This document shows, piece after piece, positions 1 through 56,671 of a stretch of 64,000 nucleotides of DNA; positions within the stretch are counted from its first letter, which is position 1; each line of letters opens with the position of its first letter. Location: positions 14,604,484 to 14,668,483 of the forward strand of contig CM059579.1 in the NCBI GenBank assembly GCA_030386875.1, in the 5' to 3' direction. The position numbers and the translations under genes were made by a program. Under the pieces are notes generated by a model, which did not search any database, was not told the origin of the DNA, and saw only the letters and a list, made by a program, of their open reading frames with translations. This DNA comes from Morinoia aosen. Lineage: Eukaryota; Arthropoda; Malacostraca; Amphipoda; Talitridae.

Positions 1-185
1 ACGCTGTATCGACTGGAATAGACTCTTGCTTTATAAAGAGCCCTGTAAAAGTGAGAGTCCATCTCGGCTCCTCATGCCTTAAATCGCGCACGCCGGTGCT
101 TCATATAATATGTGCAGCGTTTGTTTGACTTTGTTCTTGACCTACCTCTTGTGATCGTGAAAAGTGATAATTTCGATTTGTGTGC

Positions 186-430
186 GTGGCACAACATGAG
201 CGTGTGTGTGGCACATGAGCGTGTGTGTGGCACAACGTGAGCGTGTGCGTGGCACAATGTCGGGGTGTGCGTGGCACAATGTCTGCGTGTGCGTGGCACA
301 ATGTCTGCGTGTGCGTGGCACAATGTCGGCGTGTGCGTGGCACAATGTCGGCGTGTGCGTGGCACAATGTCGGCGTGTGCGTGGCACAATGTCAGCGTGT
401 GCGTGGCACAATGTCAGCGTGTGCGTGTTA
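186..430. repeat. 22-bp minisatellite (GTGTGCGTGGCACAATGTC type)
   Basis: About 11 tandem copies of a 22-bp GT-rich unit, the first few shorter and the later ones near-identical (Y or R changes at one or two sites). Because 22 is not a multiple of 3 and the unit has no stop, all three frames stay open on both strands. This produces ORFs of 68-105 aa that are not genes. Confidence 0.95.
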
Positions 431-1489
431 AATCGCGTGCGCGTTTCTGCCACGTTGTGTGCCGGTGCCGAGCTTTATTTTCACTAGGTCGTACCTGAAG
501 AGCGGTGCGGTGGTGACAGTGCCAAGAGCGCGCTGCTCGGGCGCTACCTGTCACAGGTGCGACCGAGAGCCCGGCCGGGCGTGGCACTGCAGCCCGCACC
601 GCTGCCCGCGTGGCACTTCTGGCGCAGGCACCCTATTTTGGGGCGACCTGTTGTGCTCCCGGGCTCTGGCGGGCACCCTTGCATTTGAGCATGAGTTCGA
701 TACCCGTGATAATATACTACGTTGCTTATATGCGTGAACACGCGCTGTGCTCCCGTGCGGTGCTCCCGTGCTCTGGCAGACCCCTTGCATTCTGTGCTCG
801 CATGAGCAAGAGTTCGATACTCGTGATTATATACTACTTTGCTTAACATCCTTACGCGTGACTCGGCACCACGTCCTGTTCGATGAATAATATTGCTGGA
901 AAATCCTTTTCATAACGTGTTCTTACCTAAGGGAAAGCTGTTCAACTACGGATTGCCAAGAGCATGCTGTTTTCTCACCTCTTCCCTTTGTGATACGACT
1001 CGCTGATCAGCGAGCTGTTTGCTGTAACTGCAAATCTGTGAGGCGCAATATTCCCGTACCGTAATAGGAGGGACGAGCAGCATAGGGTTATAAATGTGCT
1101 ACTGTCTTAGCGACAGCAACTGCGTTCACGGTTGTGCTTGCCAACTCGGCGTTTATTGTTGTGGTTTGCTTCGGTGCAGCTTCATTCATAATTAGCGTTA
1201 CCATTTAATTCGTGTTGCGAACTTCCATTTACGGCCTGCAAATATTACTTCAAGGTAGAGAGGCTTCAGTTACGCATTGAAAGTATTTCACTAGACATCC
1301 ACTCCTCTGAACGCCCATTATTTCACACGTTACAAAGACACCGAACACCTGCGTCTCTTTCACGGGAATGAAGTAATGAATAATAAGCTCTACGTGCACA
1401 GCACATTCGTTGTGACTATTAGGCTTCATCGCATCTTTGCGTTATTGATTGCTGTTACTGTGTCGTTAGTTCAAGAATGTTCTTTAATG
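431..1489. other. Non-genic stretch with GC-rich patch and imperfect duplication
   Basis: The first 300 bases are CpG-rich. A segment at 652-731 is repeated imperfectly at 760-847; each copy ends with a GAGTTCGATAC motif and GTGAT-ATATACTAC. No exon with recognisable coding potential was seen. Confidence 0.6.
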
Positions 1490-1492
1490 GGA

Positions 1493-1660
1493 ATTTCTAC
1501 TCATTTTATTTACAAGATTCTTGCCTGAAGATCTCTAATATTAATTCAACTATAGAAACTAATATTAATTCAACTATATTAATTCAACTATTTAACTATT
1601 TCTACTCATTTTATTTACAAGATTCTTGCCTGAAGATCTCTAATATTGATTCAACTGTAG
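1493..1660. repeat. Local tandem duplication around TTCAACTA repeats
   Basis: A segment beginning TTTCTACTCATTTTATTTAC occurs twice in direct orientation about 105 bp apart. The copies are separated by short ATTAATTCAACTA repeats. Confidence 0.85.
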
Positions 1661-1889
1661 AGGTTGTTGTCTGTCACTGCTCAGTTGTGGGTTTCGTTCT
1701 CCGATGATTGAGTATCTTTGCTTTTCTTCATTGTTCTGTAATTTATCCTTTGTTTCTTATCCGCTGACGCGCTGCTAATACCGTTATATTTTCTTTTATT
1801 TTGTGCCATGTTGACTGGATGTCGCTACCCAAGTTGAAGTGGTATTATGGCAGAACTTGTGCTGGTAAATTCATTTTTCTAACCTGGAA

Positions 1890-2226
1890 CTCAGTGGGAT
1901 ATTGACTATTGTATCTATGGAAACTAGAGCTCCCAGGGGGAATATGTGAGGCCCTGAGCTAATGGTTAGGGAAGCCATCCCTTTTTTGAAGTATAATAGT
2001 ATTTTATTTTGTTACTGACCGTCGTTTTTGGTTTATTGTGTCGTGTTTTTCAGCACTTACTATTTCTTCTTCAAGTTTAATCTTGTTTCATAAACTTCTT
2101 TCTCAACTTACTGTTTCTATGCACCTTGTGCATAAATTCCGCGTTCCATTAAGTTCGTACTAAATGGTGCCATTACTTTGTAACGTCTTTGTTGTGGTTA
2201 GAGGTCTCAAACTAAAATCTAATCTT
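1890..2226 (+). mobile_element. Family-A retroposon copy, near full length
   Basis: This copy has the family's landmarks in order: GGGATAttgACTATTGTATC, GAGCTCCCAGGGGGAATATG, GAGGCCCTGAGCT, TTTTTCAGCACTTACTA, ATGCACCTTGTGCATA, TAAATGGTGCC, and a tail AAAATCTAATC. It is diverged and has no clear target duplication. Confidence 0.8.
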
Positions 2227-4513
2227 TCTTATCTGGTGCTAATGAGAAAGTCATTTTGTAATTAAAAGTCACGCATGAATCCTTTTGTTCCACGGTGTGG
2301 GCCTTGGATCGATGTCTAATTCCACTAAATTTCGATTGAAACATTGAGGTGCTGTTTTTTCTTTTTAATTGATGTTTGTGGCTTCATTTAACGAATTTAT
2401 GTATTTTCATTATTAATACCCTCAAAAACATAACCTGGTGCTGTTACACAAGGAATTAATTTCAATCAGAGCGTATTTATTCTCCCTCAGATTTGAAGTA
2501 TATGAGAATAAACCTCAGATAAGGAGACAAAAAGGCCTCCTCTTTGATCCGACTAACAATGGCACGCTCTGGCGTCGTTTGTATAGATAAGATCCAAAGA
2601 GGTCCAACTGCTCATATCGGTTCACACCTTCCGTTTCTCATTGTCTCGTCGACTTTCCACTTTGTTCTTTCGGAATCACTCAGTGGGGAAACTGACGACG
2701 TCGACAGAACTTCTAAGTAAACTTGTGGGCCAACTCGCGCTCTCTATTCATGAGTCTCCAGCGCACGCCTTTGTGATCTCTCCGTATACACGATACGTAC
2801 CGGCCCTCATAAGTAACGCTAACATTTCAATGGACTTCAATCCTACCGCTATGATCCATTGTTTACGCTCACCTGACGCCAGCTTGTGCATCCTTGCATA
2901 CTTTCTGCCCGCTAGTCACGATATCGTGCTATGCAACTGATAGATGAAGCTCAAGTAATTCTATCTTGTCTTCCCTGCACAGTGCTTTCTCTCTTTCATC
3001 CCCAATGCAAAGGGTTCATGCTTGTATCAGGTAACGCTGTTTGTGTATTTGTTAGCTCACATCTGCAGTTAGTTTTACTGGTCGGTGACTTGAATATTTT
3101 GTTGCTGTGCTTTGATGTTAATAAGAGAGGAACTTTCGTTGCATTACTTTGTGAACAGTTAAAGATGTGCTAGGCAGTCAGTTTTTTTTATCAACACGTG
3201 TATTTGCGTCTTATTTTAAGATCGTTTTTATTTATCGTCATGAGTCCTTGAACGATCTAAGTTATTACTGTCTAAACCTTTTGTACTCTTTCGGACAACG
3301 AATCTATGATCAACGAAGGCGTTTTCCTGAAGACCACATTTATCAAACGGAACTTGTAAACGTCTGGGAAACCCGGTTGAAGTCGAATGATTCATTGTTT
3401 TCATTGTTAATTAGGTCCCCATTATTTTCAGCATGCGAGATGAGAATTTCGTTAGGTGATAGTGAAGAGAAAGTCATACGAGTGAATACATTGGAATAAC
3501 TGATAAGGCTCCTCAAATTTGAGGGATGAGCAGATCGCTCAGGAGATGCCCGATTCACTCTTTTGTCTAGGTCAGACGTAAAATTCTTTATTATCACCAC
3601 GGAACACGATTAAAAGTAAAAATGGAGATAGTAAGGATCGAATCCTAATTACAGTCATGCTTGCACTATCTCACGTATACATGAGCGAAAATGTTGCGCA
3701 TGTACACTGTACAGGCACGAAGAGAAGCAAGCTCCCTTCGCCCGGTAGCCACCTCTGACCTTCCACACACACCTTTATGCCATCCTCCTCCCATCTCCCT
3801 CTTGCCTGATTGCCGCTCCTCCGTTCTCTCCGCCTTCGCTTTAATGCGGCCGCGAGGTAGTTACACTTTATGCATTTTCGTTCCGAGTTCTTCCAAGCGC
3901 ATTTCAGACTCCTGCAAAAAGGTCGCTGCACCTCATCATTATTGTTGCTTTTAAACTGCATTAATTTCCGTGCAATGAGGAATTTGCTTTAAATCTAGCC
4001 GTTCATTTCCCCATCCGAGCTTCAAACATTGACCCTAGACGTAGCCACTGCACTATGCCTTCTCCTGGTGTAGTCGTGCTTGGCTTGCTAGACGCTAATT
4101 CTGTGCGCATAAACAGAAGACTCCCTACGGTGTGATTGGTGCGCGATTAAGCTTGATCTATGTCGCAAGGAGTTCGGAGAGTTCGTGTAGCGATCACTGC
4201 GCCTGCAATGCAGTTTGTGTAGCCCCTAGTACTGTTGTACATGGGCTGACAGACAAGTTTACACAAGTGCTCTCTGTCGCGGTCACGAGAGTGAACTCGT
4301 TGGTCCCCAGTGTGGGTGTGTCGTCACCGCTCGCAACGCTATCTGTGGTGGTGATAGCGTGCAAAACGCAGTTTTGTTTTGCGGCATCGTCACTTGTAAA
4401 GCCAAACAATTTCCACGAGTTTTTCAACAACACGTTAGGTCTACGTTAAGAAAAACTCTTCTTTTCAGCCTACATCGGTGTTTAGTTTTAGCTGTTCGAT
4501 TTTTTAAGCAAAG
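2227..4513. other. Intron-like sequence, no gene recognised
   Basis: Mixed-composition DNA with several short ORFs (up to 110 aa) that lack recognisable motifs or homology. No splice-flanked conserved segment was seen. Confidence 0.55.
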
Positions 4514-4892
4514 CTCACTAAAGGGGATACGCCTAAATTGTGTGGGAAGTAGCATTCCCAGATGGAAAACGTGAGGTCTCGAGCTGAAAGATAGGTAGGG
4601 TTTACTTTGTTTATACTCGTAGTAGACGATTTTTTTTCGTTGCGATCCATTTTTTTCACTGCTGTCCTATTTTTCAGCGTCTGTTACTTTTTTATTCAAC
4701 TTTTATCTTTCATACAAATATTTCATAACTTGCTGTTTTTATGCGCGGGAGATCTTGTGTGAGAAAACACCTTGTACGCAGATAACATCGATCCTGAACT
4801 CCATTCTTAATAGTGCCTTCCTCTTTTTTTTTTTAAATACTTTTGTTGTGATTATGGAGGCTTAAATTAACTCAAAATCTATGTAGCCTAAT
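4514..4892 (+). mobile_element. Family-A retroposon copy, long variant
   Basis: Begins CTCACTAAAGGGGATACG and continues through GGGAAGTAGCATTCCC, TGAGGTCTCGAGCTGAAAG, TTTTTCAGCG and GGAGGCTTAAATTAACTC. Between TATGCGC and ACCTTGTACGCAG it carries an extra segment of about 25 bp. Copies at 5145, 12440, 30551 and 38144 have a similar insert, suggesting a subfamily. Confidence 0.75.
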
Positions 4893-5144
4893 TTTATGTC
4901 AGCAGAGCTGTACGAGTCGTTTTTTTTAGAGTGTCTCGTTTAAAGAAGCTACATTCCCCAAAAGTTAGCATTGATCCGAGTGACGTGTGCTTGAAACTCT
5001 TGGCAAGATGTATCAGCAGCTCCGGCCTTGCTTGTCACGTAAATGGTTGCCAAGCAGTGTCGCCTCGCTTCTGCAATGCTCTGCACTGTAGTTGTAAACA
5101 GTGTATGATAGCACTACTATCTTGTACCGTTTCGGTGTTTATTG

Positions 5145-5488
5145 TCTCAGAAGGATACTACCATATTATTTATGGAAATTAGTACTCCTAGGAAGGAAAT
5201 GTGAGGTCCTGAACTGAGTAAGGTAAACTTTCTTTTTGTTGAAATAAAATATTTTTTGAAGGGCCAATTTTTTCGGTTCACAGCTTTCCTGTTTTTCAGC
5301 ACCTCTGACTTTCTCCTTCATCTTTTATCATGTTTGTCTTCCTTCTCAACTTACTGTGTCTATGCGCAGGAGATCCTGTGCGGGAACGACCTTGTGCATA
5401 GATTTTAACTCGATACTAAACGGTGCCTTCATCCTTCCTCTCTTTGAACATCTTTGTGTTAAGGGAGGCTGAAACTAGATCGTAATCG
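5145..5488 (+). mobile_element. Family-A retroposon copy, long variant
   Basis: Starts TCTCAGAAGGATACTA and keeps GTACTCCTAGGAAGG, TGAGGTCCTGAACTGAG, TTTTTCAGCACCTC, the 25-bp extra segment (GCGCAGGAGATCCTGTGCGG), TACTAAACGGTGCC and GGGAGGCTGAAACTAG. The tail is diverged. Confidence 0.8.
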
Positions 5489-7009
5489 ATCAATTGAACA
5501 AGTTTTGGGATATGAAGATGGTTTGGACGCCTGCTTTGACCACGCTTACGAAATTTGGGAAGAGTTTTAGTTTCTCAAGTAGTTACCAGTAGTTAAGGAA
5601 AAAAATGTCTTCGAAACCGTAACTACCCTGTAGATGCGAGTGGTATTCGGCATTTCGTGAAAATACGTAAATTGAAGTCAAAATTGGGAAAAAACGCACC
5701 TTCTAAATGCATAGAACTACGAGCTCTTTGTCTTCCAAGATCAACCCTCTACATAGGGGGTGAGATGCGCGGGAGTGCAGCGGTTATGATTAGTCACCTC
5801 ATTCGGGGACGGAGGGGAGTGTGGGGTGTGTGCGCTGTGGCCCCACATCCAGAGGCCTTGGTTTTGGATTTCACGACTGCTGCGCCTTCGTTTTCTTAGT
5901 TCAGGATTTCACGACACGCTGTTCAGCCGGTCTGCGCTTTCGTCTTCTTAGCACGTCACATGACGTGTTATGCTGTGCAACGACATTTTCGTGGTGTTCT
6001 GTTGCTGGACGAGTTGCATCCTAACGTTCATACACGCTTCTCGTCTAACGCGATGGAGGAGTATTGCAGTTCATTTTATTTATCAACGCCTCCTGTAATT
6101 CATTTTTTAGTAGATCCATGAGAAGGCTATTTGCTTCTCTAGACACTTCCGTGTGGTCTCAAAACTACGTTTTGCCCCCGTATTTATTGCAAAGAAAATG
6201 TAATGCAGAGAGCAACTCATGAAGTTAACACATTTAAAGTTGTTCATTCTAGTTTGTATGGGCTAATTTACTTTTGTATTTTTCTCAGTAATAAAGTGTG
6301 CAACATTTTAGAGCATGGAAAAACTTTCGTCTCTTGTTTGTCGATAGGATCAAATTAGGCTTTTCGGGTAGCCATTCAATTTTCATACTATAAATATCAA
6401 GAGGATTGATTTCCCAAGCGTGCTCTGTAAAAGCTGCGACGTATTCCATTTGTTTAAAAAACACAGCTTAGTTTACGTGTCTCTACAACGGTACTACATT
6501 CTTGTTTTTACACTTTTTTCCACACGCTTGTCTATACACAATCTGTTTTTTCTACGCACTACACTTGTTCTATGGCCTCAAAGCTTTCCTTACTGGCAAT
6601 CTCGCACATGTTCTTTTGTACTATCTGTTTACTTTGCGTGTTATCGGCCAACCGGTAATTACTGCGAATAAATAAGGTGTGTGATGGGTTTTTGTGAGAC
6701 TTGCATGGCGTGATCGACGTGTGTTGCCAGCCGTCTTTCTTTTTCTATTCATGGTGCTGCGGCTCATCTCTTTCTCAGTGTTTTTTAATAAAAAATTTAA
6801 ACAAAGTCTTGGTAAGTCTATGAGAGCTAGATAATGGGGCCACCTCAGCTGTTGGTACGCCTTCTGGTCAGATATTGTTCGTGTCTACTTGCGCCTTCCA
6901 GTTTCCATGCCTTATTCGATTCTTTCAGTAAGAAAGGCTTCTTTTGTTCCTCTGCTTGATTTCTCCTTTCATTCCATTCCAGACTTGATATTTCTTTGTG
7001 CTGGGTACT
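5489..7009. other. Intron-like sequence, no gene recognised
   Basis: No conserved coding segment or clear repeat. Short T-rich ORFs on the + strand only reflect base composition. Confidence 0.5.
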
Positions 7010-7085
7010 CAGTGTGGGTGCGTAGATTCCTCACTTCTCAAGTTCATACTAAGTAGTCCCTTCTAGCTCTCTTCGGATTGCAATT
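7010..7085 (+). mobile_element. Decayed 3' fragment of family-A retroposon
   Basis: GCGTAGATTCCTC, TCAAGTTCATACTAAGTAG and CCCTTCTAGCTCTCTT match the 3' half of the family in order, with heavy divergence and no tail. Confidence 0.4.
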
Positions 7086-8654
7086 CATGCCGCTAGGGAA
7101 TTTCGAGCTAACATTTTCTCAACTATACCTCTGTAAAGGATATCTCTTCCAGCATGTTCATGCTTTCTTGCTTCCAGTATTTCTTGCTTAAATCAAGTTA
7201 TATCGTTCTGACTCTGGACGATGTGAAAGTTATTTGGTTAGTAAAAATGCTGTTTCTTTATTGTTTCTAATTTATATTTTCGAGAGTCAGTAAACTCGAC
7301 AGCAAAGTGAGCTCTTGCATGCTGTATGAAACACTAAAATTGTATGTTTGGTTTATGTATTTTTTTGGCTTTCGTTCTAATTTTCATTAATACGCATTTA
7401 CGTTCAATGATTTATTTTAAAACGAACAATCAAGTGGAAAAATGTGACAATTGTTTGGTTTGGGAAAGTAAATTAAACATAGACAATATTTAATTGATGA
7501 GTAAATGTGAAACATTTTTTAGAAAGGACAAACGAACGTCACTGCGTCTCTCCACTAGTCCAGTTACATTTGTGACTCTCATTTTTCTGTGCTCTGAAAA
7601 AATGTCAGTCGGTTGTCCTCTGGGTATGGTTTGACGTCGTGCTGCAATTAATGTTCCGAGTTCAAGTTCGTTTTTTATGCTCCGCCATGACTAGACCTGC
7701 TGCTGCATCTCGAACCGGTTTGCACTCTTGCGCGGCTCTGAGTATGTTCTGCCGATGTGCTAACATCGTTTACGCTGCAATTACATCACTCTTTTATCAC
7801 GACTTTTCGTTTTTACACACCAGTCGTAGGTGCATTAGCTTTTCGAAGATGTACCGTATGTATGTACTGACATCGTGGCTGTTCCTTTGCAGTCAATGCA
7901 ACAGGCTGTGACAGTTTTTCTACCTGGGAGTCGCCGGTTGTTGGGAAGTTTTTATAATAATTTATTCCTGTCTCATCCTGATCTTCATTACGTCTGTGAC
8001 CGTGTACGAACTATCAGCTGAAAATTTTCTCTGATTTCAAGATATTACTAGCTAGTTTTACGCTAGACCGCATTGTTATCGAAAGAAATGGCGAGCATCT
8101 TTCATACAAGTTATGTTCATAAAGCTGTGGGTATCGTGTGAATGTCCTTGTTTACCTACCTGTGATATAAAAGTTTCCGTGATCATTTTATATATGTTTG
8201 ATTTATTCGAGTAGCGTTTATATTACAGGCTATGTTGCAGTGTAGAATGTAAATAAACTTACCCTTTTGCTGTGTGTGTGTACATCGTTTGTTATCGCAC
8301 TGTCGATGGAATAGTATGAGAAGATATGCAGCTCCTTTCCCGTGTTGCACAACCAATCCTTGCTCTATCACTTGCTAAGTGTCTCGCTCTCAAATTCGTT
8401 CAGGTTCTTTGCAATAGACGTGTGTAGGGAATGCGTGTTGTTTCCACAGAAATAGGGGTAGAAGCCTCACCCTGTAGCGTAGCCCTGCGATGGGTTATAT
8501 ACGCGCACGCGCCACGTGGCGGCCGCGGAGTAACACGACACCGGTGTTGTGGTTACCTGCCTTCAGCGGCCTCCGCGTTGTGTGTTCTGAGGCGCAACCG
8601 CATGCCCGTCTCGTCTTTTTGTGGGCCCATTGTTCCCGCGCTCCCTCCCGTCCT
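7086..8654. other. Intron-like sequence, no gene recognised
   Basis: AT-rich until about 8430, then a CpG-rich patch at about 8490-8650 containing a NotI-like GCGGCCGC. No start-proximal ORF or promoter element could be identified with confidence. Confidence 0.45.
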
Positions 8655-8930
8655 CCCTCGTGTGTCTGTCTGTTAACATGTACTCTTGTCTGAGCTCTGA
8701 ACGCATTTCAGCTATTTCAAGTGCATTTCTTAGTCTTTGGTTGTTCCCTCTTGACTTTTTTCCTAAAAAATGTTCCTTAGTTAGGAAGCTCTACTTCCTC
8801 TCTCGTGTGTGTCTGTGAAGATGTACTCTTGTCTGAACGCATTTCAGTAATTTCTGGTGCATTTCTTCCACTTCGGTTATGCCCGCTTGAGTTTTTCTTT
8901 GACCTATTCCTTAGTTTAGAGCTCTGTCGC
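8655..8930. repeat. Tandem duplication of about 145 bp
   Basis: Two diverged direct copies (about 8655-8798 and 8799-8930) share CTCGTGTGTCTG, ATGTACTCTTGTCTGA, GAACGCATTTCAG, TGCATTTCTT, and TTCCTTAGTT followed by an AGCTCT. Confidence 0.85.
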
Positions 8931-9624
8931 ATGGTGTGTAGCCAACTGCTAGTTTCTTATGTATTCCCTTACCCGCCTCGTCCGGTATTTTTTTTTGTCT
9001 CGTCCCCTGGGGACGACTGCTTGCAGCTGCCTCGGACGTGCGTCCTGACTCATACTCTGCAACCAACTCTTGTTACTATGTTTATTAGGTTGACACCTAT
9101 AATTGAATCGCATATTTTATAATTGAGGCCAGTGACTACTCAGTGTTCCCTTAAATGTCTGAAATGTTTGTTTCTTCATCCCAGAACTGCATTGACATTT
9201 ATTTTAGTGTATCCGACTTGATGCCACAAATGCAGTATTTTTAGGTATGTGAAAGGAAAGAAACTCACCAAGTTAAGAGTCTGGTCCCCTTACAGTTTGT
9301 CGACTCGCTTTCTCTGTTCTCTACATCGCTGAAGGAGCTGCTTGTCCGGTAAATGTACTCTGCAGTTGAAGCTAATCGAACCCGGACCTTCTCGTCCAGA
9401 ATTAACGCTCAGGCGTTGTCACAAACAAAGAAATGCAGTATTTAAATCAAAATTATTTGTTTTATCATATTTCAAAATTTCATTATGTGCACTTTTCAAC
9501 TTGTGAACGCTTTGTGCTTCGTAGTAAAGTGGACTAGTCAGATTCCAGTGAGACATGTAGATGAGCCGGAGTAGCATTCCGACTACCCGTGCACTTAATG
9601 CCCAACTCAACGTGCTTTGTGGCT
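8931..9624. other. Intron-like sequence, no gene recognised
   Basis: Contains a splice-flanked open segment at 9296-9348 with no recognisable homology. No other structure was seen. Confidence 0.45.
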
Positions 9625-9838
9625 CTTAGTTCTCAGCCAATACCTGTCATTTTCTCCCTCAATGTTCATCTTGTGTTAGCTTCTTTCAATCTGCTTCTGT
9701 TTTCAAGAAATGCTTTGTGGGAATATTCTTGTGCATCGATTCCCTGTTCCCTTAACTCCATACAGGATGGTTCTTTTCTCCTTCTTATGATGGAACGTTT
9801 TTTTTATGCTTATGGAGGTTTAAGATAACTTCTAGTTT
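9625..9838 (+). mobile_element. 5'-truncated, diverged family-A retroposon copy
   Basis: Keeps GTGGGAATATTCTTGTGCAT, CGATTCCCTGTTCCCTTAACT, CCATACAGGATGG and TATGGAGGTTTAAGATAACT. The 5' half is missing or too diverged to place. Confidence 0.6.
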
Positions 9839-12015
9839 TATCAAATAAAATTATATGTGAGTGTACTAGGTGCGATAGGGCGTGCTTTTCCTACACCTCC
9901 GTGCTCAGCTGGATGCGCTCCCCAGGGGGCAGCAGCGGACGCAGTGTGGGTGTTGTAGGCCGGAAGGTAGGCCCGCGGATGTTTCTTTGTTGTCGGTCTT
10001 TTTTGATCCCTTCCGCTGAGTTCCCCGCTGTTCTGCGCTGCTCCACCTGCGGTCTCCAGAAACTGTTTTTCTCGCTGCCCCGGTCAAAAAATGCGGTACC
10101 GAAAGTGAAATGGACTGAGAACTTCTCTGCTGGTATTGAACGATTGCTGAAGCTTTTGAAGTTGCTAACTTAACAGAATTCTAACTTGTGTTGTTATGAG
10201 ACGCGATGTGCAGAGCATTTTTGTAAATAAAACGCCAGAGTGCTAAGGCTTTGTTGAGCGAGATGTTTCGAATGACGTATAAAGAGAGTGCGCGGAGTGA
10301 AATTATACTTGAGAAATTTTGTATTCAGTTTCTGAATAACAGAACCGGATTCGTAACTCTGAGCACCAAGAATTGAGACACAAAGCGAAAATTTGTCTGT
10401 ATTTCTTGGTTTCTTTCCTGCCTGATTTCTTTCTCGTTTAGATTGCTGGGAAGAACTCGATTTCGTTGAAAATTTCGTTGCCTTGATCTCGTTCCGCCGC
10501 GTTGAGCTCATCAGGAAGGAATCGTAAAGTTGCCAAATTTAATTTGAAAAATCAAAAAATTGGAGACGTTGAATTTCTCTGCACGACAGCTCATCTCGAC
10601 GCGGACTTTGCTTCGAAATGTGCTGGGCTTGTGCAATTCCAGTCGAGGTATTGGAATGACGAAGTTGTATTGTTATCGACTGGGAACCGCCTTGAACACT
10701 TGCACAGAGGCGTTGTCCTAATAATGCTTTGATAAAGCTAACTAACATTAGTGTTGTGTGCTGCTTGTGTTAATGGCTTGCTTTATGTTGAGGAGAATCG
10801 AGTCTTGAATTTTTACGTCTTCAAATGGATCGTGGATCCCTGGCGAGAAACAATCTAAAATGATATCCGCATTAATGTGTCTGATTGTTAAAATGAAAAG
10901 CAAGGCGAAAATCGCTGTACGCAAAGTCAGAATGACTATAATGATTATCTTCGGCTTGCTTTTCATTTCGAGAAACAAAAAAGAATGTTGGCCAAGGAAC
11001 GCCTCCGTTTCAAGGCCTTCACGTCAATGGCCTCTGTACACGTGCACGGTTTCCTGCAAGCCTCGCTAGCGCGCGCCGAGAAGCGTGCGTGCGGTATAGC
11101 CTCGCTACAGGCGCACACGTGCGCAGCCTGCAGCTCCTGGTAACAATCACACGCCTCGCACCACCGAGCGGAGCTTTCAAAGACTTCAGCCGACGTGTTT
11201 CTGGGCGTCCTGCTTCGTAGAGCAGTAACTGTTTTTGGTTTAGTGCGTGTCTTGAAAACGCGATGTGTACTTTATGGGTCTTTAAGAGGCGCGTGCGTTT
11301 GCTCCGTGGTTTCGTTGCGCTGCGATCGGTAGCCATATGTAGGATCTAGGTGCAAATGCGCGGTGTTAAGCATGACGTCAATCCTTTCGTGTGTTCCCTT
11401 TGCTTCTGTTCTGCAATGCGTGGACAGGCGTGCAATTTGTACTTCTGCCGCCTTCTTACTATCTTTTGAGTTGAGTGCACGCGTTGTTGACTCGCTTTTT
11501 ATACAGCGAAAAGTGTGAAGGGTTTAGTGATCGCTTAGCTTGTCGTACGTTATCCACGTTAATTTGGTTTTAATTTATTATTTTTCGCTTGCACGTACTG
11601 CTGCTGAGGAATTGTTCAATGAATACGAATGCACGAAGGTACCTGTTTTAAAGTTTTTATTCCGCGTAGTCACCATATTTGAACCATTTACGTATTGCAC
11701 ACGAATATATTCCTATTTCTGTAGCTATGGTACGTTTATGAGTGTCAAGTCTGTGCGTATCGTACGGATGGAATATAATTTTTCCCCAGGTTCCGGGTGG
11801 CTGCAATGTGGTGGGAATGCTGGCGTTGCTACAACCGTCGTACGTAGCTCTCGGTATTGTCTGCGAGGTACAGTTACGCACTGAGGCACGGAAGGCGTGG
11901 TGCCTACCTACATCCTATCCGTACCTCGGTCCAGGCTCGCTCCGTACAGCTGCGTACCGAGATATGCTAGGCGTGGCGCCTCCGCTCTTTACAGAAATCT
12001 CGTTCTATGAGCTCT
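9839..12015. other. Intron-like sequence with one exon-like segment
   Basis: CpG-rich sequence lies at about 11030-11200. A 78-nt segment at 11790-11867 lies between TTTTTCCCCAG and GTACAG and is open in two frames, but I do not recognise it. Nothing else was supported. Confidence 0.45.
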
Positions 12016-12413
12016 AGAACACATGTTCTATCGTTTCATTTTATCTTCCAGTAGATTTTGAAGAACACATGTTCTGTTTCGTTTTATCTTTCAGTAGATT
12101 ATGAAGAACACATGTTCTATTGTTTCATTTTCTTTCAGCAGATTTTAAAGAACACATGTTCTATTGTTTCATTTTATCTTTCAGCAGATTTTAAAGAACA
12201 CATGTTCTGTTCCATTTTATCTTTCAGCAGATTTTAAAGAACACATGTTCTGTTCCATTTTATCTTTCAGCAGATTTTAAAGAACACATGTTCTGTTTCA
12301 TTTTATCTTTCAGCAGATTTTAAAGAACACATGTTCTGTTGTTTCATTTTATCTTTCAGCAGATTTTAAAGAACACACGTTCTATTGTTTTATTCTAGCT
12401 TTCAGTAGATTTT
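12016..12413. repeat. Minisatellite, about nine copies of a 43-47 bp unit
   Basis: Each unit contains AGAACACATGTTCT, a T-rich stretch ending TTTATCTTTCAG, and CAGATTTTAA. Later units are more uniform than the first two. The 6-bp arms AGAACA and TGTTCT are separated by CA. Confidence 0.95.
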
Positions 12414-12439
12414 TACTTTTACAGTGATATGGGCTGATC

Positions 12440-12685
12440 TTCTCAAGAGGAAACAGCTACTGTATCTGTAGGAATTAGTTAAGTACCTACTATTTTCTTC
12501 TTGAACTTTTATCTTGTTTCATTGACTTCCTAAGTTGCTGTTTGTATATGCACGAGATCATGTGTGGGAACGCACCTTGTGCATAGATTCTCATTTCCTT
12601 AACTCCGTATTAAATGGTGCTCTCCTATTTTTGTTTGGGACACTTCTGCTGTGGTTAGTAAGATTTAAACTTAGACCTCTAATGT
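12440..12685 (+). mobile_element. Family-A retroposon copy with internal deletion
   Basis: The 5' end (TCTCAAGAGGAAACAGCTAC, TGTATCTGTAGGAATTAGT) is joined directly to AGTACCTACTATTTTCTTCT, skipping about 140 bp of the family sequence. The rest runs to GTGGTTAGTAAGATTTAAAC. The long-variant segment (GCACGAGATCATGTGTGGG) is present. Confidence 0.8.
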
Positions 12686-13075
12686 GTAGGCTGATGGTGG
12701 AGGTAATGTGGGCTGATGGTGGTGATGTGGGCTGATGGTGGAGGGGATGTGGGCTGATGGTGGAGGTAATGTGGGCTGATGGTGAAGGTGATGTGGGCTG
12801 ATGATGGAGGTAATGTGGGCTGACGGTGGAGGTGATGTGGGCTGACGGTGGAGGTGATGTGGGCTGATGGTGAAGGTGATGTGGGCTGATGGTGAAGGTG
12901 ATGTGGGCTGACGGTGGAGGTGATGTGGGCTGACGGTGGAGGTAATGTGGGCTGATGGTGGAGGTGATGTGGGCTGATGGTGGAGGTGATGTGGGCTGAT
13001 GGTGGAGGTGATGTGGGCTGACGGTGGAGGTGATGTGGGCTGACGGTGGAGGTGGTGAGACCTTGAGGGCTGATG
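12686..13075. repeat. 22-bp minisatellite (GTGGGCTGATGGTGGAGGTGAT)
   Basis: About 17-18 tandem copies of a 22-bp purine-rich unit with changes at a few sites (TGATGG/TGACGG, GGAGG/GAAGG). Three units make 66 bp, so the complementary strand reads a 22-residue Pro/His/Ser/Thr-rich period. This gives spurious ORFs of 140 and 185 aa. Confidence 0.96.
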
Positions 13076-13545
13076 GTGAAGTGAGCTGGCCATGTTATAG
13101 TATCTGAACCAGCTGGCCGGTGATGAGCACTTAATTTATCGTGTAAGAGTACACCATGCTCTTGATCAGGACAACTAAAAGGCCAATATGAACGTACTGA
13201 GTTGGATACTCGCGAACGATGGGAAACATTTATCATCTTGAAGAACTATCAAACGTTTTTATGTCACTTCACAATACCAGATTTTTAGTGCCCATTCTGT
13301 TTTCAGATATAATTTGTATTGAAATTTACCCGCAAGTCTCATTTTGATGAAATAATTTTTTAACCATCGTGAAAACAATAAGGGTGAGTGGTAAATTCTT
13401 TTCGGTGATTTCTTATACGTTTAAAGGGTCTCACGTTGATTACCACATTTTATTTTACAAAGAACTGTGTGAATGGAATTTGGTTTCTGACTGTGTGGAT
13501 GCAATTTACTCTCTTGTTTACTGTGTTACGGAAAAAAAAATATAT
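13076..13545 (+). other. Intron upstream of the Mxd microexon
   Basis: AT-rich intronic DNA between the 22-bp array and the microexon acceptor. I see no other exon. Confidence 0.6.
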
Positions 13546-13568
13546 TAATGCAATTTCTTATTTTTCAG
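13546..13568 (+). promoter_or_regulatory. 3' splice site of the Mxd microexon
   Basis: An uninterrupted pyrimidine-rich run ends in CAG directly before the conserved coding segment. A TATTAAT-type branch-point candidate lies just upstream. The strength of this acceptor fits constitutive use despite the tiny exon. Confidence 0.8.
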
Positions 13569-13598
13569 GAGCACACACAACGAGTTGGAAAAAAATCG
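13569..13598 (+). CDS. Mxd: Microexon encoding the MAD/MXD/MXI1 bHLH basic region
   Basis: The exon is 30 nt long, preceded by TTTCTTATTTTTCAG (with a branch-point-like TATTAAT about 20 nt upstream) and followed by GTGAGT. With the first base completing the previous codon and the last two bases opening the next, it reads STHNELEKNR. In MAD, MXD and MXI1 proteins this stretch is the basic region that contacts CACGTG E-boxes as a heterodimer with MAX. His3 and Glu7 are at the class-B E-box contact positions; the Arg expected at position 11 would come from the next exon. Both flanking introns are phase 2, so the neighbouring codons are CG|N or AG|G Arg. From memory, vertebrate MXD genes also have a very short exon here. 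These nuclear repressors recruit SIN3 through an N-terminal domain, not seen in this window. MNT proteins differ at the first residues, so MXD/MXI1 is the better match. The flanking exons are not in view. Confidence 0.87.
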
Positions 13599-13607
13599 GT
13601 GAGTACC
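13599..13607 (+). promoter_or_regulatory. 5' splice site of the Mxd microexon
   Basis: TCG|GTGAGTACC is a strong U1-type donor. It follows exactly two bases of the split Arg codon that the MXD family has at this point (EKN-R). Confidence 0.8.
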
Positions 13608-14765: not shown

Positions 14766-15885
14766 ACTTGAACTTGAACTTGAACTTGAGGGCCGACAGT
14801 GTCGGGGCCTTTGTAACGGCCTACAATTCCCTCCACAATTTTCACACAAAGAGTTCAGCGCCTGGTACCAGACTTGTCCACTAAACTACTCAGGATCTAC
14901 GATCCTTGTCACAAGCCTCCATTGGAAGGCATCACCGGGACAACCAGCGTGTCAAAACACCATCCCCCGGCACATTGTGTCATTACAGCCCATTCTACCA
15001 GACTGGCTCATTCCAGTCACTGTCTCTTACTCCAGGCACGCACAAGAAACACTTTCATAGCCTCAGTGATACTCGCATTACACTCCTGATCCAATCCAGC
15101 AAGACAGCTCATACCGCAATCATCTTCAGCACATCTGGCATTCCACTCATTCTCTCCATACTGCTCAGACACCACATTCATAAAACTCTCTCTCTCTTGC
15201 TCATACTTACTACATTTCAGCACAAAATGCTCAATTGTTTCCTCTACTCCACTATTACACTGCTGACATAATCTGTCATTATTCTCATTCCATCTCCATG
15301 TACGTCTGTTCACACTCAATGACTTACATCTCACAGCAAACAAGAGTTGACTTCCAAAACTACCATCATAGAACAGCTCAAACTTAGGTGCTTTCTTTTT
15401 CATATACCAGTTAAGTGTAGGCTTCCGCATCATGCTAAGCTTCCACTTATTCAATCCATACTCTTTTGTTTGTCTCTCAATCTCTTTTTTCCACCTCTTG
15501 CAGTCCCACTCAGGCCCTACACCTCCAACATTTATTAAACTCCAGTCATCCACAGGTCTCCCAATTCTAACATGAATAATCTTTTGCATACTGAGTTTCC
15601 TTGCATGCCCCCAACATACTTTCTCCCAATAGCTTACACTCAGATTCCATTCAAAGATTCGCCTTACCCACCTGCTATTCTGCATTCTTTCAATTCTCAC
15701 CTTATAATTCAGCACAGCTTTCATCATTCTTTCTGAAAATAGGCTCCACCCTAGGTCACCTCTAATGGCTTCTATAGCTGTCCATTTCGGAGCACCCAAT
15801 GCTACACGTCCTACCTTATTTTGTATCACATCCAGCTTTTCAAGATCACTTCCATTCCAAGCAAGAGCACTCATACTCATACTCG
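14766..15885 (-). mobile_element. 5'-truncated non-LTR (LINE) retrotransposon
   Basis: The element is read on the minus strand. Its 3' end is a tail of about four TTCAAG repeats (14766-14790), preceded by a GC-rich hairpin-like GACACTGTC region. A 3' UTR of about 230 bp then leads back to the ORF at 15017-15880. The 5' end stops abruptly near 15885, which is the usual truncation pattern for target-primed reverse transcription. I could not find a convincing target duplication. Confidence 0.85.
15017..15880 (-). pseudogene. C-terminal part of a LINE ORF2 (reverse transcriptase tail)
   Basis: This is a 287-codon open frame without frameshift, much shorter than the usual ORF2 of about 900-1200 residues. 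It lacks the endonuclease and the catalytic RT core. Residues 11-66 (KLDVIQNKVGRVALGA, then AIRGDLGWS) resemble the region after the RT thumb in jockey/CR1-like elements. Residues 205-223 form a CX2CX9HX4C zinc-knuckle-like motif (CQQC, then EHFVLKC), common near the C-terminus of these proteins. The first Met is only the first in the surviving frame; the open frame runs a few codons further upstream. The uninterrupted frame suggests a fairly young insertion. The exact clade is uncertain. Confidence 0.85.
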
Positions 15886-16328
15886 AAGATAGATCGAATC
15901 ATCTTCAGAGAGTGCGGGATAATGATGTTTATCGCCTCATTTTCCTAATATATGAGTGTGTTTAGTAGAATTGATGGTGTAGTTGATGTCCGAAAGATTA
16001 CTCGGTTATCAATCAGGCTTGACATTTTCAGCGAGAAATTGGCTTTCACATTCAAGTTACTAATATTCAAACGAAAAAGTGAATCCAAAATTGTTATTTT
16101 ATAAATTACTCTAGATCATGAAAACACAGTGTGAAACCAATGTCAGTTCTAAGTTTTTGGCCTGAACGTAGGAGTAGCTAATTTCTTTGGCTAATGAGTG
16201 AAGGCCTTGGGCGACGGGTGCTCGCCAAGTTGTTGAGTAGAGATGGTGACTTGTTCCAGTGATGAAATGCGGCCTTTCGATCTGTTTCTCTCTATAAACG
16301 CGAAGTGAGAACGATTATAGTTTTTCCA
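15886..16328. other. Intron-like sequence, no gene recognised
   Basis: AT-rich DNA between the LINE fragment and the 32-bp array. Nothing identified. Confidence 0.5.
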
Positions 16329-54261: not shown

Positions 54262-54436
54262 GCTGTTACTGCTGCTTGTGTTGGTGTTGTCACTGCTTGT
54301 GTTGGTGTTGTCACTGCTTGTGTTGGTGTTGTCACTGCTTGTGTTGATGTTGTCACTGCGTGTGTTGGTGTTGTCACTGCGTGTGTTGGTGTTGTCACTG
54401 TGTGTGTTGGTGTTGTCACTGCTGGTGGTGGTTGTC
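54262..54436. repeat. 21-bp minisatellite (CACTGCTTGTGTTGGTGTTGT)
   Basis: About eight copies of a 21-bp unit. Because 21 is divisible by 3, each frame gives a seven-residue protein repeat (for example LLVLVLS). This produces ORFs of 139-200 aa that I do not consider genes. Confidence 0.96.
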
Positions 54437-56671
54437 ATTGCTTGTGGTATAATTGCTCCTGCTATGACAGCCTTTGTTTGTGTTTGTCGCTACAAAAGCG
54501 GCGGCTGCTTATTGGTTGTACTGACCTATACACCCAGTCAGCGAGTCGTAATGGTGTTCAAGAGATATTTAAACCCACGTGTTGTTCTGCCAGTCTACAG
54601 GACATCGGGCTTAATTGCACGTTGAAAAAAGAATGTGCGAGCAAGGACGCAGAATTACCGAGAGTACAGAAGTCAACACTTAGATGTGCTTGGTTGCTAC
54701 TTGGATCTGCGTGGTGCTTGCGTCTTGATGTCGGGCGTTTACATTGTTTTGCATGAAATTTATTTCGTACAGATTTTTATGAGTTTGCATTACTGTAAGC
54801 CTTTTAGTGAATAGTTGTCTACGAGCGATGTTCAAGTAATTTAGTGACTGTTTAGTGACAGGTTACAAGTGTTATTATATTAATTTAATTTGGCCTGGCT
54901 GCTACAACCCAGTCTTTAAAAAGCGTTTGAGCGTCTGATGCATTATTGTATTGGAGGAAAGTTACGTCGAAGAGAACAAATTTGCAAGGCTTATGGGTGT
55001 AGAAGCAGGAGGGATATTTGTACGTACATTACACATTTCAAAAGTGGGAAGAGAAAGTAATCGACCAAATATTACCGTCTTCAGTTGAATTTTAGTCTAG
55101 GATTACGTGAAGCTAACATTAGGATTGAGCGGCCGGCCGTCACGCACAACGAGCAGTATAGATGGATGAAGAGCGATTGTGATGGATTCGGCTGCAGCCG
55201 AGTACCGTGGTTCGTGTTGGCGAGAAATTATGAATAGGTGTCTACATTTACCGCAACGCAGGTAATCCAGGTTGTTCCTTCTGCAACCGCAAGAATTAAA
55301 TCATTTGGCTTGAACGCTACATTTTTAGTCTTCTTGCGTTATGGTCTTCTTATTCAACACGTTCTCCGCGTATTGGGCCTTATGTGTACCAATAGGCTAA
55401 TTGCTCATTTACGTACCGGTATAAATGAATGACATTTCATTCATTTCACGACCGTTTCAAGAAATGACTATCATCATACGAGGTGAAATGTTATCATGCA
55501 ATTTATTTTTCATATTTCTTAGGAAGGATAAAAATGCATTTGAGCAGTTATGTCGATTTCCCTTTTCTGTTATTCACAACCTTCTCAAATCAACCGTTAA
55601 CACTCGCAGAAACACGGTGAACGTTTTAAGTTATTGATATTCCAACTTTTCGGCTCCAATTATGTTTCTATTAAGGTAGATGTTTTCAATCCCACTGCCA
55701 TGGCATCAATTGTTATAGACCTACTTAGGTTGAGATTTTCTGATCGTGCTGTAGCGCCATCTTCTCGTGTTATTTACTCTTCAATGCTACGTGATCAACA
55801 TGAGATTTTTTCGTGGTATTGTTTCAAGAATGTGTGTGGAACGCGGTACGCTCGGTTCGTTATCTCATCAGATTTTTTTTTATCATCATTTTCTTGTCAC
55901 TGCAATATTTCGTTTATCATTCAGAAGATAGGTAAGTCATCCGTAGTCTATATCGAATTTATCCTGTAATATGATTCACCATATCAAGGCTTCAAAGTTT
56001 CAAGGTATTTAAGGTAGCGGGAATTATCGTGAGGTAGCACTCTAATATTTTCAACTTCAATAACGTCAGCAACAACTTGCTACTTCATCCTTAGCAGGGA
56101 AGTAAGACAACCTGAAATGTTCATGATTTAATCACTAAAAAGAAAGAATTACGGAATTACCTACCGCATCAAAGATATGCCTATCACATCAAAGATTCAC
56201 TTACTACAGCAAAGATGATCCTAAGCATAAAAAAAAATTCTACGCGTGAAAGACGATCCTACGTGTAAATCAGAGGTGAGAATAGGGTTTATGTGAACAC
56301 GTAGGTAATGACACATAGCTTTGCTCGTAGGTTCTTAGTTTTCAATTGGAATGGGAGTTTTTGATTCGTTGCACGTCTCTTGGATTTGGTTATTTAATGA
56401 CAACAAAGATTTCATAAAGAAAGTTCCTACCAAGTTCCATGCTCAATCACGGGCGTGATACCAGAGCTGGCGTTAGAGCGTACTCTACTGTCTCACTTGA
56501 CCATGGGTTTCGTCGTATGTAAGAGCGTTATGAGATGATTAATAACACTTGGATTCTTTCGTTTCAACGCTACGTATTCAGTTTTCCAATCGAGATTTGT
56601 CTAAGTTTTACTTGGATCATTTTGAAGTGAAAATCTAGTATGCGGACGCGATGAATGTTCCATGTTGATAC
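54437..56671. other. Intron-like sequence, no gene recognised
   Basis: A 111-aa ORF at 55634-55969 (+) ends near a donor-like GATAG|GTAAGT at about 55930, but its product is not recognisable. Loose 22-bp repeats (CATCAAAGAT) lie near 56165-56215. Confidence 0.45.

Follow-up and report, generated by a model that had tools for sequence, protein, structure and literature searches.

The closest described systems to the exon reported here are the Mad (MXD) genes of mammals. In the rows of a giant panda bHLH survey used here, the GpMad1 bHLH motif is encoded in pieces of 5, 30, 115 and 9 bp; two of its introns fall in the basic region and a third in helix 2. GpMad3 has two basic-region introns (pieces 26/120), while GpMxi1 and GpMad4 are each listed with one (pieces 35/115 and 31/117, respectively). 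These piece lengths were worked out from the printed coordinates, and the survey's introns were predicted with NetGene2 (PMC3212526).

Splice variation has also been described in man. According to a passage on human MXI1, its exon 3 encodes the DNA-binding domain and isoforms without that exon have been suggested to be dominant negative (PMC2441969, citing Kawamata 2005); the excerpt consulted on human MXD3 describes splice variants that differ in the last exon (PMC6390498). Because exon-3 loss has been published for human MXI1, the idea of dominant-negative skipping is already in print for a vertebrate relative. Our literature search retrieved no text pairing MXI1 with 'microexon', none on MXD with 'microexon' among the matches listed, and none joining MXI1 alternative splicing, exon 3 and the DNA-binding domain. 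In insects the family is patchy as far as two tables go, Mad being present in five of 13 columns of one (PMC5126786) and two of six columns of the other (PMC3527142).

A 30-nt exon in a six-exon gene

The window, the whole 64-kb stretch of Morinoia aosen DNA that was analysed, corresponds to C24:14604484-14668483 (+) in a genome of 1.99 Gb and 29 contigs. The initial 5 kb of four contigs, one of them N throughout, showed no telomere motif. At window positions 13569-13598 on the + strand (C24:14618052-14618081) lies a 30-nt exon, bounded by an AG at 13567-13568, which follows TTTCTTATTTTTC, and by GTGAGT at 13599-13604. The exon reads G AGC ACA CAC AAC GAG TTG GAA AAA AAT CG, preceded by ...TTATTTTTCAG. 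Its first base completes an Arg codon begun upstream, the residues STHNELEKN follow, and its final two bases open another Arg codon. It is a very short, in-frame exon of phase 2/2; the upper size of microexons is usually put at 27 to 30 nt. The original prediction of a splice-flanked, phase 2/2 coding exon for STHNELEKNR at this position is borne out, and neighbouring exons fit it in phase.

Those neighbours were located by motif scans over 160 kb of C24 surrounding the window. The resulting model of an MXD gene has six exons on the + strand, spanning about 132 kb (C24:14557502-14689583), with all but exon 3 outside the window. The scans place the Sin3-binding helix in exon 1 (C24:14557502-14557556), a linker in exon 2 (C24:14589676-14589916, ending ...AAC AG before gttagt), the helix-loop-helix in exon 4 (C24:14684139-14684253, starting A CGA GCT CAC after gcag) and the zipper in exon 5 (C24:14687709-14687940). 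Exon 6, the putative tail (C24:14689201-14689583, with a TAG stop at its end), was chosen because its phase fits, an acceptor is present and the stop follows a Ser/Asp-rich stretch; with phase, acceptor and stop alone behind it, its placement has less evidence than that of the other exons. Exons 1-5 end in phases 1, 2, 2, 0 and 1, respectively, and the five introns, all GT-AG, measure 32119, 28135, 66057, 3455 and, by coordinates, 1260 nt. Window positions 1-13568 thus belong to intron 2, which begins after exon 2 upstream of the window, and positions 13599-64000 to intron 3, which runs on to the start of exon 4, some 15.7 kb beyond the window end. The joined frame is 1056 nt long with the stop at its end, encoding 351 residues.

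The arrangement closely resembles that of panda GpMad1, where a 30-bp basic-region exon is likewise followed by a 115-bp exon and by an intron in helix 2. Among the four panda Mad rows, the exact 30/115 combination of exons 3 and 4 is found in one and both introns in two. The flanking introns differ, being 28 and 66 kb in the C24 gene and 4 and 14 kb in GpMad1 (PMC3212526). It is the same layout in a mammal, together with the exon loss reported for human MXI1, that makes exon 3 look like a normal gene part. It is probably an ordinary, old part of MXD genes, and the C24 gene amounts to an ordinary orthologue of one already described.

Identity of the encoded protein

When compared with the MAD chain of PDB 1nlw, the residues of exon 3 are identical at nine of ten positions. 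With only ten residues in the window, and with a motif scan of its 64 kb finding no further exon of the MXD gene there, the possibility that the match is fortuitous or stems from a pseudogene has to be weighed. Among the six frames of the window, however, exon 3 was the top match to the MAD basic-region 10-mer, with 9/10 against 5/10 for the runner-up, and 40 dinucleotide shuffles never rose above 6/10. Since phase-matched exons with an open frame also lie on both sides, a chance or pseudogene origin is scarcely credible. Searches of the window for RNA families at gathering scores and for tRNAs both returned zero.

Exons 1-5 together (224 residues) match the Pfam HLH profile with 51.8 bits over positions 2-53 of 53. 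A PDB search with the same residues yielded 13 sequences at E ≤ 0.01, led by MAD (1nlw_A, E = 3.7e-25); MYC came next (9.4e-6) and the best MAX chain scored 1.5e-3. The gapless alignment to 1nlw_A continues past the HLH, as a leucine zipper, through exon 5 to residue 176. Residues 1-22 match the Sin3-interaction peptide of Mad1 (1pd7_B, E = 3.2e-4), the sole other listed match being a ribosomal protein at E = 1.8. Judged by its sequence, then, the gene product is an MXD repressor. This agrees with the identity first proposed for the exon, in which most of the basic region is encoded. The His-rich linker and long Ser-rich tail of the predicted C24 protein set it apart from MXD1.

The motif HN-LEKNRRAHL is common to MNT, so that the gene might instead encode MNT or another bHLHZ relative. 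Against this, its N-terminal helix is Mad1-like, its HLH is closest to MAD among solved structures and a separate MNT-like exon lies elsewhere in the genome, at C13:51075267-51075410 (-). The latter, which we take to be part of the MNT gene, reads SREVHNKLEKNRRAHLKECFDLLRRQIPN. Its basic region, VHNKLEKNRRAHLKECF, is related to that of the C24 MXD gene, but in C13 basic region and helices are unsplit by an intron. Assignment of the C24 gene to MNT or another relative is accordingly very improbable. We therefore read the feature as exon 3 of a normal, apparently single-copy MXD (MAD/MXI1-type) gene, with a probability of about 0.95 on the sequence data.

The gene is presumably transcribed, and its mRNA would join the six exons to encode a 351-residue protein comprising, in order, an N-terminal Sin3-interaction helix, the His-rich linker, basic region, helix-loop-helix, zipper and Ser-rich tail. 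As in other members of the family, this protein is predicted to pair with MAX, to bind E-boxes through the exon 3 residues and to repress by recruiting the Sin3 co-repressor. The residues of HNELEKNRR that read the E-box are presumably the His and second Glu, both supplied by exon 3, and the last Arg, which lies in exon 4.

Copy number

The exact 44-nt stretch comprising exon 3 and its splice sites occurs once in the 1.99-Gb genome. A protein search of the genome listed three places, namely exons 4 and 5 and a weak match at the C13 site (E = 0.044, 48% identity), with exon 3 unlisted. A degenerate basic-region pattern found two places, exon 3 and the C13 site, but since a reversed control pattern likewise found two, the number of pattern hits is no evidence by itself, and it is the context that identifies the sites. 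Neither exact pattern, protein search nor degenerate pattern revealed a second MXD gene across the genome, in six-frame searches that scored the best candidates only. The original prediction named a complete MXD gene at another locus, containing an intact version of this exon, as evidence that would count against it; these genome-wide searches found none.

An HLH family search of the genome gave 71 places. One of them, C24:14684134-14684253 (+), covers profile positions 11-50 only, so that the basic part of the HLH is largely missing from it. Several HLH exons, on C2, C3, C5, C7, C15, C16 and C24, come in pairs that score identically, such as C2:52119525 with C2:52816591 and C7:8604579 with C7:14216105. 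Such pairs may reflect either recent duplication or assembly redundancy.

Splice sites and the consequences of skipping

Skipping of exon 3 would join AG to A and keep the frame, changing ...KHVSNRSTHNELEKNRRAHLR... to ...KHVSNRRAHLR.... The HLH score falls from 51.8 to 33.0 bits, with the match starting at profile position 11. The joined sequence thus agrees with the earlier proposal of a frame-preserving skip that removes DNA-reading residues and spares the partner-binding parts: the Sin3-binding helix, helix-loop-helix and zipper all remain in it.

Splice sites on the + strand were scored over 224 kb by means of an approximate matrix, and all ranks and scores given here are to be read accordingly. 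On this approximate scale the exon 3 acceptor ranks 25 among 11560 AGs and is the best of the four scored (exons 2-5), while the exon 4 acceptor is weak (4676 of 11560). The exon 3 donor ranks 79 among 14583 GTs, yet is the lowest of the five donors of exons 1-5. Only three AG-GT pairs 6-60 nt apart in the 224 kb, exon 3 among them, reach both exon 3 scores. Overall, the scores lean weakly towards inclusion of exon 3.

These results bear on whether exon 3 might be a regulated cassette, skipped in certain tissues to give an in-frame MXD protein that would pair with MAX and Sin3 without reading E-boxes and so act as a dominant negative. The preserved frame with its reduced HLH score, the long flanking introns (28 and 66 kb) and the donor that scores lowest of the gene's five on the approximate matrix are all consistent with such regulation. 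On the other hand, the high-scoring exon 3 acceptor and low-scoring exon 4 acceptor give no hint of preferred skipping, and shared ancestry alone explains the equal exon size in a mammal. The human MXI1 isoforms without exon 3 were reported from haematological tissue (PMC2441969). In the C24 gene a regulated cassette is judged unlikely, and constitutive use is the preferred reading, with exon 3 most likely present in almost every transcript. More doubtful still is the stronger proposal that skipping has been a regulated switch since the common ancestor with mammals, by which MXD would cease to repress at E-boxes and sequester MAX instead, perhaps under the influence of acceptor-like repeats upstream.

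Intron neighbourhood

The repeats in question lie 1.2-1.5 kb upstream of exon 3, at 12016-12413, where a 43-nt tandem repeat with a polypyrimidine tract and CAG is present in about nine copies. The array contains nine of the 46 acceptor-like sites scoring at least 8 on the approximate matrix in the 224 kb, spread over eight copies, and most copies include the near-palindrome AGAACACATGTTCT. Between this array and exon 3, at 12685-13054, are 17 copies of a G-rich 22-nt tandem repeat, TGTGGGCTGATGGTGGAGGTGA, in which no donor-like site scored at least 4 on the same matrix.

Further downstream, a 293-aa open frame at 15017-15898 (-) has a sub-threshold zf-RVT match (18.7 bits against a cut-off of 27.5) and is probably, from this resemblance, a retrotransposon remnant in intron 3. 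At 54272-54446 a 21-nt tandem repeat of 8.4 copies falls within two overlapping + strand open frames.

Implications

Exons as short as this one are a likely annotation trap, since gene finding that misses them would produce an MXD model lacking the residues that read DNA. The panda Mad1 exon sizes, as worked out from the survey rows, match those found here and suggest an early origin for the division of the basic region in MXD genes. If so, exon-3 loss of the kind described for human MXI1 may be worth seeking in other animals.
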